Origin: Lutjanus erythropterus
Taxonomy: Eukaryota; Chordata; Actinopteri; Lutjaniformes; Lutjanidae
Reading direction: 5' to 3'
Length of the DNA: 64,000 nt
Assembly (NCBI GenBank): GCA_020091685.1
Contig: CM034592.1
Location: forward strand, 41,065,622 to 41,129,621
Made by a program: the position numbers and the translations under genes. Positions 46,301 through 49,300 of the stretch are shown one piece after another; the first letter of the stretch is position 1, and the number at the start of each line of letters is the position of its first letter. Under the pieces are notes generated by a model. It was not told where the DNA came from. It made no database searches and worked only from the letters and a program-made list of their open reading frames with translations.

Positions 46301-49300
46301 TTAGCGGACTATCGTTTTGAAGCCTATGGCCGTTGCCGTCTTGGTTTTTTGGAGCCAGAAGTGGCCATATTTAGATGAGATGGTTGAGCTGGGGAGGTCG
46401 CTGTGGTAGTCAGGTAGCCACGCCCTAAATTATACCCTGCTTTATTGTCTATTTTATTGTAAATGGAACTATAATTTACTAAATGAACGTCATCCTGTGG
46501 AAGAAGATTTGAAACTAGTGATTAAGACTCATTAGGAATCTGTTTATTCAGGTAATAAATCAAGTGAGGAGTCGGGTTGTTTTGCCATAGGTTTATATAC
46601 AGTCAGACTCCTTTGTGCAACCAGTGGAGTCGCCCCCTGCTGGCCATTAGAGAGAATGCAGGTTTAAGGCATTGGCTTGACTTTTCAGACCTGGATGCTC
46701 TGTCCACTTCTCTTGTATTGTTGCTGTATTAGTATCTGCAGTATTTTGGATCAAACAGCAGGTGAAAAAAAGTCAGTAAGCTCCTGCAGTTACGTCATTG
46801 CCTGCAGTCACATTTGATTAAATTCTATCAAACAGTCTAATCAGACCTGCCGTGTCCTCAGGTTTTGCCATCGAGGGGCCTTCCCAGGCTAAAATCGAGT
46901 GCGAGGACCAGAACGACGGGTCATGCGACGTCCGCTACTGGCCGACGGAGCCGGGAGAATACGCCGTCCACGTCACCTGCGATGAGGAGGACATCGAACA
47001 CAGCCCCTTCATGGCCTACATCGTCCCTGACAACAACACCAATAACCCAGATAAGGTCAGTAGTGCTGTGAAACCATTTAAGTATATCTGGGTCCTGGTC
47101 CTGATCAGCTCAAGACATCTCTTCTAAATGATACTGTTTTTTTTTTTGTTGTAGGTCCAGGCTTATGGACCGGGAGTTGAGAAGACCGGCTGCCTGGTCA
47201 ACCAACCTGCCGAGTTCACCGTCAGTGCTAAGGATGCTGGGAAAGGACCTCTGAAGATCATGGCTCAGGTAAGACACAAAAATCCTGTCCTACTCAGACA
47301 TAATAAATACATTCAGAGATGCTCATATTTGTGTCAGCTTTCTCTCTAAAGTGCAGTTCAGCATTTTTTAAATAATACTAACAACTATACATGGAGCTTA
47401 CAACTGATTGGTCTATTAAATGTCAAATTGCTATCCTAATTTCTTAAACCTCAAAACAAGCATTTCTATGCAGCCACACAAAAAGTCTCTGCATACCTGA
47501 ACTGTCAGAAGGTGTAAGGACTTGTTACTACGCTGTTATTTAAGAGAGACGGTTTGCAGGAGTTCTTCTCATTGACTTTTGTGTCTGTTTCATGAAGCTT
47601 TGACCACCTTCTTCTGTCTCTTTGTCAGGACGCAGAGGGACTTCCTGTGGAGGTGAAAGTGAGGAGTAAAGGCGACGGGTTGTACGCCTGCTCTTACACG
47701 CCCAACTCCCCTCTCAAACACACCGTGGCCGTCGCCTGGGGAGGAGTCGGCATTCCCAACAGCCCGTTCAGGGTAAGCAGCCAAGCACAGCTCCCTGTCA
47801 CAACAGGAAGTGATATCCTGCTCAAATCCACGGATCCGGTTAAGTCAGAAAGTGTGAAGGTTTTACAATCAGAACCTTTAGTTAAGGCAGAAACCATCAA
47901 ACTTGTCCAATCAGAGCCAGAGGAAAGTTTTAAGATGCTGCAGAGCAAAAGTAAAGATGCGAAAAGTAAAACTAAGAAGCCTCTGATTATCATCACCACA
48001 TACACTGAGGAGAGGTACATCAACCACACAAATGAAGTGATACATTAAACTTCAGATGGAGCCAAGCCAGCTGTTTTCCCGTTTTCACTTTTTATGCTAA
48101 GCTAGGCTAACCACACCATGACTCCATCTCCACACTTAAAGGTGCAATGTGTAAAATATGACCTGAATTTTAAAGTGTTAAAAAAAATAATTAACATTAT
48201 CTACATAATTTGAAGAAGTAGCAGTTCTGACATTGTGCCACAGACGTGACAGACGTATCTACTGAAGTTAGCATGCTAACCAGCTGGCCCCGGCCTATCC
48301 TGTTCAGTCTTTGAGTCTGTGTTTACTGAGAGGCTGCTGAGCCTGGTTCAGTTCCCTGTGGCGTAAACATCTTCTGGTGCGCCGAGCTGCAGGCCCGCCC
48401 AGACTCAAGTCATAATAAGGCCACAAGCTGCGGGGCTAACCGAGCTAACAACAGCAAGCAGGCTAGCTACAGCCAAAGGTAGTTACAGAAAGGAGTGAGC
48501 AACAGTTAGTGGTTTCTCTGGTGATCTGCTGCGCCCGATTTGTTTGGTGTTGCCTTCAACAGGTGGCCATATTTTACACATTGCCCCTTTAAATCACAGA
48601 CCTGAGATTAATATTGATATTTTTACTCTTTCTTATAACAACATGTGTGAAAGTGTGTACATCCAGACGTGGAAGTCATTCTTCAAACAAACTAAAACTT
48701 TATCAAAACCAGAGCTTCTACCAGATCTTAACTTGTTTTTTAATCAGATGTGTAATAATAATTTGCTGGGCAGCAAACTGATAGACTGTTACCTAAAAAT
48801 AGTCAGAAGCATCAGTGATGACAGACCAAGCCTGCAGTTTGCTGAGGAGTAAAACGTTCTCAGATTTTGTTGCCTTCATCACAGAGGGTTTGTCATGTGG
48901 CATGAAGCCATTAGCTGGACTGAACTCAGGTTGGTTGGTTGTTATGTGCCAAAGTGTTTGTCATGCAAACTTGATTTTAATTTAAAATAATTTTCTGATA
49001 CTAAACTGACACTAACATATAATTAACACCATGCATATGTTTTGTTTTTGTTGTTGACTGAAGAAATATGACTGACAATCACTGATGTCCACTATATGAT
49101 GAAAAATGAAGTTACAACTAAAAAACTCTGTTGTGTTTTGATAAATTTCCACATGGTATATGTAGTACACTCATTAACCTCTGTCTGTGCACTGTAACAA
49201 CCTTTGGTTTGTCTTTTACAACCTCACTTTGAACTTTACTAATTTTAGCTTTTTTAAAAATGTAATTATTTAATCAAACTTGTTTTTATGTCAACTTTAC

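Follow-up and report, generated by a model that had tools for sequence, protein, structure and literature searches.

A candidate coding extension of a likely filamin B exon into its downstream intron in Lutjanus erythropterus

A filamin gene and an open frame after repeat 5

The analysed window, a stretch of 64,000 nt from the 938-Mb genome of Lutjanus erythropterus, carries filamin exons on the + strand. Parts of the actin-binding domain were located at 31277 and 33210 by a motif search, which did not reveal a first coding exon of the gene. When the exons from 36657 to 47772 were joined at their AG/GT borders, they gave 520 aa without internal stop. Because these 520 aa contain five Pfam filamin repeats and run in frame to the donor at 47772, the gene is of the Filamin/ABP280 Ig-repeat type and the donor lies after repeat 5. 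The features that are needed to follow the open frame past this donor are listed below.

47629..47772, + strand: flnb exon that completes filamin repeat 5 (DAEGLPVEV...IPNSPFR), from Pfam, PDB, AG/GT borders and open joining
47773..54436, + strand: intron of the canonical transcript, donor AGG/GTAAGC, acceptor TTGCAG/GTG, phase 0 on both sides
47773..48045, + strand: in-frame extension of 91 codons with a Lys/Ser/Glu/Thr-rich tail, from translation
48046..48048, + strand: stop codon TAA, from translation
54437..54560, + strand: next canonical exon, start of repeat 6, phase 0, from sequence and frame

The exon together with the tail gave a Pfam Filamin match (3.1e-12), and the top PDB match of the exon was 4m9p, named Filamin-A. 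The intron has 6664 bases (about 6.7 kb). A repeat-6 exon of the gene also lies at 56623-56880, and it stood out among the control ORFs described below. Long (CA)n/(GT)n arrays are located directly 3' of several filamin exons (36805 to about 36926, 43298-43365 and 54575-54650).

Judged from sequence scores, the gene is likely, although not proven, to be FLNB rather than FLNA or FLNC. For repeat 10 of the window, the best PDB match was the FLNB structure 2dia (80.2 bits), followed by an FLNC chain (77.3) and the FLNA structure 3rgh (62.1). For the exon beside the tail, by contrast, FLNA gave the best score, and its matches at 1e-8 included no chain of FLNB. Three further filamin genes were found in the same genome, on C10, C12 and C22. 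The C10 paralog is clearly FLNA-like, the C12 paralog scores alike to FLNA and FLNC, and the C22 paralog has an exon closely resembling that of C12. All three share with the window gene an intron after repeat 5, and the matching introns begin AGG/GTGAGT, AGG/GTAAGA and AGG/GTAAAA. When the tail was sought in these three introns, it was absent; their frames stop after 29, 23 and 26 codons in unrelated sequence. By this comparison, the intron position is shared and the tail is confined to the window gene among the filamins of its own genome, and it is therefore not an ancestral filamin feature. The paralog introns also look much shorter, under about 1 kb by the frame of the next exon as against 6664 bases here.

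An earlier sequence-only reading had described a frame that stays open for 91 codons past a strong donor, and the open frame was confirmed: positions 47773-48045 encode 91 residues and TAA follows. The donor itself is ordinary and not especially strong: with a score matrix trained on 19 other donors of the same gene, for which scores ran from 5.88 to 11.43, AGG/GTAAGC scored 7.84 and ranked between donors of 7.61 and 7.93. The read-through is the longest among the window filamin donors that could be framed (19 of the 21 listed; 2 could not be framed), the others reading 0 to 39 codons. It also exceeds the maximum of 42 codons at the donor-like exon ends of the paralogs, of which 46 out of 58 were kept (GT followed by A or G), leaving out 3 without GT and 9 with GTC or GTT. 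These nine omitted ends read 0, 5, 11, 30, 40, 57, 64, 77 and 108 codons; by our own reading, the values 57, 64 and 108 belong to exons that do not end there, and the run of 77 codons crosses a short intron and enters the next exon out of frame. A frame running from an unspliced donor to a stop inside the intron is one mark of a composite terminal exon, and such a frame is present here.

Length by itself is weak proof, because 0.5% of the GT sites elsewhere in the intron are followed by runs of at least 91 codons, and over the whole window the share is 2.2%. The same figures favour the reading of the tail as a chance intronic ORF, that is, an AT-rich, stop-poor stretch in which a small tandem duplication happened to change conservatively. 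Furthermore, a reverse-strand frame at 47694-48044 (116 aa) is open across the tail segment, which means that the proposed strand is not the only open one, and the tail was selected out of the whole window. We regard a chance origin as unlikely, albeit the most serious competitor of a used isoform.

Codon-position signal and internal repeat of the tail

A codon-position model was trained on 23 exon pieces (1198 codons) and applied to all six frames of the tail. Frame 0 scored best with 0.041 bits per codon (exon mean, 0.183), while the other forward frames scored -0.371 and -0.261 and the reverse frames -0.057, -0.123 and -0.402. This frame-0 score was matched by 6 of 3504 control frames from 584 control windows (0.17%). 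Among the control ORFs of at least 70 codons, 4/153 matched it, and as two of these four sit on the unmasked repeat-6 exon (one of them on the reverse strand), 2/151 are left after their removal, a remainder that counts in favour of a chance ORF. The three-base periodicity of the tail was matched by 2.7% of control windows. The signal is not even along the tail: it is strongest 3' of the repeats, where 0.13% of 3024 control frames match, and it is small in the first 22 codons (17.9% of control frames match) and in the two repeat units by themselves (13%).

The sequence-only reading had also described two and a half units of a 14-residue repeat in the tail, which are placed as follows.

47839..47880, + strand: 14-residue repeat unit 1, from DNA self-match and protein similarity
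47881..47922, + strand: 14-residue repeat unit 2, from DNA self-match and protein similarity
47923..47949, + strand: partial unit 3 (ESFKMLQSK), from a protein-level match only

Two of the units are clear in both DNA and protein, and the third is partial and visible at the protein level only. Units 1 and 2 can be found at the DNA level alone, as a match of 38 nt with 74% identity at a spacing of 42 nt. For unit 3, p was 0.006 and 0.023 for protein and 0.34 and 0.96 for DNA, figures that are biased upward because the unit was picked on protein similarity. The best 38-nt self-match of the tail (28/38) was not reached when bases were shuffled (300 times, 26 at most) or codons were shuffled (300 times, 25 at most), but it was equalled in 2/117 real non-coding windows, a point for the chance reading. 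At the protein level, the best 14-aa self-repeat score of 44 was matched by none of 1000 shuffles and by none of 244 ORFs free of low complexity; among 328 ORFs in all, 26 matched it, every one of them belonging to the 84 flagged as low complexity. The similarity of the repeat is also specific to the frame, with a score of 47 in frame 0, as against 17 and 1 for the two alternative forward readings and 20 at best on the reverse strand.

The manner in which the units diverged also points to protein-level constraint. Units 1 and 2 differ at 11 of 39 bases, and by the Nei-Gojobori method these are 5 synonymous changes in 9.0 sites and 6 non-synonymous changes in 30.0 sites (pS 0.56, pN 0.20). When the same 11 changes were scattered randomly, the observed protein similarity was reached in 0.2% of 20000 trials starting from unit 1 and in 0/20000 starting from unit 2. 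The repeat units thus diverged more conservatively than random divergence predicts, and the earlier statement that they differ mostly by synonymous or conservative changes is borne out. Each clear unit opens with a psi-K-x-E motif (VKSE and VKAE), which is the consensus for SUMO attachment. Two such motifs within the first 91 residues occurred in 0/331 ORFs of at least 60 codons; this pair is a lead only, because the two copies of the unit are not independent.

For a chance ORF, the length, the frame score and the repeat pattern would have to coincide. When 400000 tails were simulated from a Markov model of the intron, 1026 stayed open; three of these 1026 matched the tail in frame score, and in repeat score not one did. 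Frame-specific composition and constraint at the protein level, by which protein-coding sequence is recognized, are both found in the tail, within one sequence, and the claim that the extension is coding-like is favoured alike by frame composition, by the neutral-divergence null for the repeat and by the donor comparison. All of these statistics rest on a single sequence, preselected by a reader, and the tests overlap and are not fully independent; the probabilities should be taken as guides and not as proofs. Read in this way, they favour the tail as past or present coding sequence.

The 3' end of the frame and its repetitive neighbours

If the tail is coding, its end should be considered together with the elements that adjoin it, which are the following.

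48044..48049, + strand: ATTAAA, a possible poly(A) signal overlapping the stop codon, from sequence
48049..48135, + strand: interspersed-repeat fragment (left edge about 48045 to 48059), from genome matches and copy borders
48136..48592, strand not assigned: element with 28-nt terminal inverted repeats that are 93% complementary, from self-comparison

A canonical poly(A) hexamer is thus present near the proposed 3' end, and a hexamer alone is weak evidence. Read from its 5' end, the intron has no AATAAA or ATTAAA before this one, and another follows only at 49510. A T-rich stretch lies 3' of the hexamer at about 48073-48094; when ten of the eleven AATAAA/ATTAAA sites of the intron were compared, this one did not stand out in the T and GT content of its downstream sequence, and no TGTA element was found in 47773-48140. 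The end sequence of the element at 48136-48592 recurs at 31395-31416.

The interspersed repeat begins about 0-14 bases from the stop codon and has 39 other matches in its own genome among the 40 that were scored out of 119 candidates. Seven copies were retrieved and aligned; their left borders fall at 48045, 48048, 48049 and, in three, 48059, and one weaker alignment starts from 48019. As judged from these borders, both the stop and the hexamer may stem from the interspersed repeat, or the repeat may have cut off a longer coding stretch, and for this reason the reading of the tail as a relic keeps its weight. In that reading, a flnb segment that once was coding, as a longer exon or a terminal exon, was cut by the interspersed repeat and is now plain intron that has not decayed. 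It agrees with the age of the repeat units, which look selected but old (dS about 1, with five changes in nine sites). However, the listed copies of the interspersed repeat are 77-97% identical to the window fragment, which suggests an old insertion, by comparison of copies rather than by dating, and an unused frame of 91 codons might carry a stop or an indel by now, whereas none is present. On balance, we consider a relic rather improbable, and somewhat more so than a chance ORF.

The neighbours on the downstream side resemble mobile elements, as would be expected if a fragment of another gene or of a mobile element had been copied into the intron and were open by inheritance. Against such a copied fragment, no second copy of the tail was found in the 938-Mb genome among the best candidates scored, either by protein (best 2 candidates per search) or by DNA (1 candidate). 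A Pfam search gave nothing above the cut-off, with a sub-threshold PLCC match only, and the search for PDB homologues gave none below E 1 and one match at E 2. Homologues of the tail were likewise sought in viral and prokaryote contigs and none were found, nor was another filamin exon found in the viral contigs. We consider this origin very improbable. Structure prediction of the exon with the tail, made without an alignment, gave a mean pLDDT of 35.8 and was uninformative. By analogy with integrin tails, PLIIITT was considered as a place for a putative filamin-binding strand motif.

A possible short filamin B

Among the readings weighed, we put first that the tail is a genuine coding extension, used as a composite terminal exon that yields a short filamin B. 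From its sequence we give this reading somewhat less than an even chance, and treat it as a candidate and not as a proven protein. In this scheme, the donor at 47772 would be left unused in some cells, and the ATTAAA at the stop would direct cleavage of the transcript near 48060-48080. The product would consist of the actin-binding domain and repeats 1-5, followed by a tail of 91 residues that is probably flexible, and it would be devoid of both hinges and of the C-terminal dimerisation repeat. From established filamin biology (in part after PMC6103745), such a product would be expected neither to dimerise nor to cross-link. It should bind actin without cross-linking it, and it could compete with full-length filamin B. 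The anatomy of the locus, the coding-like statistics and the absence of the tail from the paralogs are observed, and no second copy was found in the genome; that the site is used, that the protein exists and what it does are inferred.

Two outcomes had been offered by the sequence-only reading, a short filamin B ending after repeat 5 and a longer linker. The former fits, with five repeats upstream of the donor and an ATTAAA on the stop codon, and it would be the isoform described here. The latter fits poorly and was set aside: the ORF runs into a stop codon, and the tail has seven further in-phase GTs, none of which is a good donor as judged by eye. The acceptor-like AG at 47806 could in principle open a skipped terminal exon of its own, a possibility that was weighed and dropped; this AG lies 34 bases from the donor, and its joining to the phase-0 donor of the preceding exon loses the tail frame.

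In an atlas of human intronic polyadenylation, composite terminal exons made up 1648 of 2675 assembled isoforms (61.6%), AAUAAA or AUUAAA was present in 80% of composite events, and the genes concerned were enriched for repeated domains (PMC5928244). The proposed form resembles these composite isoforms in its unused donor, the extension of an exon into the intron, the nearby AAUAAA/AUUAAA and the loss of C-terminal repeated domains. Unlike them, the window case is known from sequence alone, and its tail looks constrained, with a diverged internal repeat. The same atlas associates much longer introns with skipped-type and not with composite terminal exons, and the 6.7-kb intron therefore does not favour the composite form (PMC5928244). 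Two further points count against a used isoform, namely that the donor is of ordinary strength and not weak, and that ATTAAA hexamers are common.

Filamins are actin cross-linkers whose Ig repeats are involved in tail-to-tail dimers (PMC5173320, PMC6103745), and their known variants include hinge-1 skipping (PMC6103745), a fly C-terminal short form (PMC5173320) and poison exons (PMC12652946). As in FLNB-deltaH1, which arises by skipping of exon 30, alternative RNA processing of filamin B would alter its function here; FLNB-deltaH1 drops hinge 1 and keeps the rest (PMC6103745), whereas the proposed form would lose everything after repeat 5. Like Drosophila FLN90, the proposed form would be a short filamin that shares its gene with a long isoform, but FLN90 comprises the C-terminal part and lacks the actin-binding domain (PMC5173320), and the proposed form would be the N-terminal part with that domain. 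A filamin form like the proposed one was not found among the matches listed in the open-licence literature, from which novelty does not follow, and two fish papers mention filamin without the proposed form in the passages concerned (PMC6873903, PMC9204890).

The poison exons of Flna and Flnb that are repressed by PTBP1 also are intronic segments that end the frame early, and they give some ground for a different use of the site, namely regulated intron retention that leads to nonsense-mediated decay and tunes the level of filamin B (PMC12652946). Inclusion of those exons goes with a lower protein level (PMC12652946), whereas the tail described here is coding-like and has a possible poly(A) signal. 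Moreover, a stop would suffice for a decay switch, and 91 coding-like codons with a conserved repeat would not be needed. We therefore hold such a switch to be improbable.

Taken to its full extent, the coding reading would describe a fish-lineage-specific short filamin B, composed of the actin-binding domain, repeats 1-5 and a constrained repeat tail and formed by intronic polyadenylation, that acts as a monomeric actin binder and competes with the cross-linking form. Judged from the sequence features given above, this fuller version is possible but doubtful. From its psi-K-x-E motifs, the tail could even be a binding module that is controlled by modification. If the reading is true, the gene would have its own modulator in the form of a natural filamin that retains the actin-binding domain and lacks the part for dimerisation, and the locus would show how a lineage adds a new protein tail from an intron.
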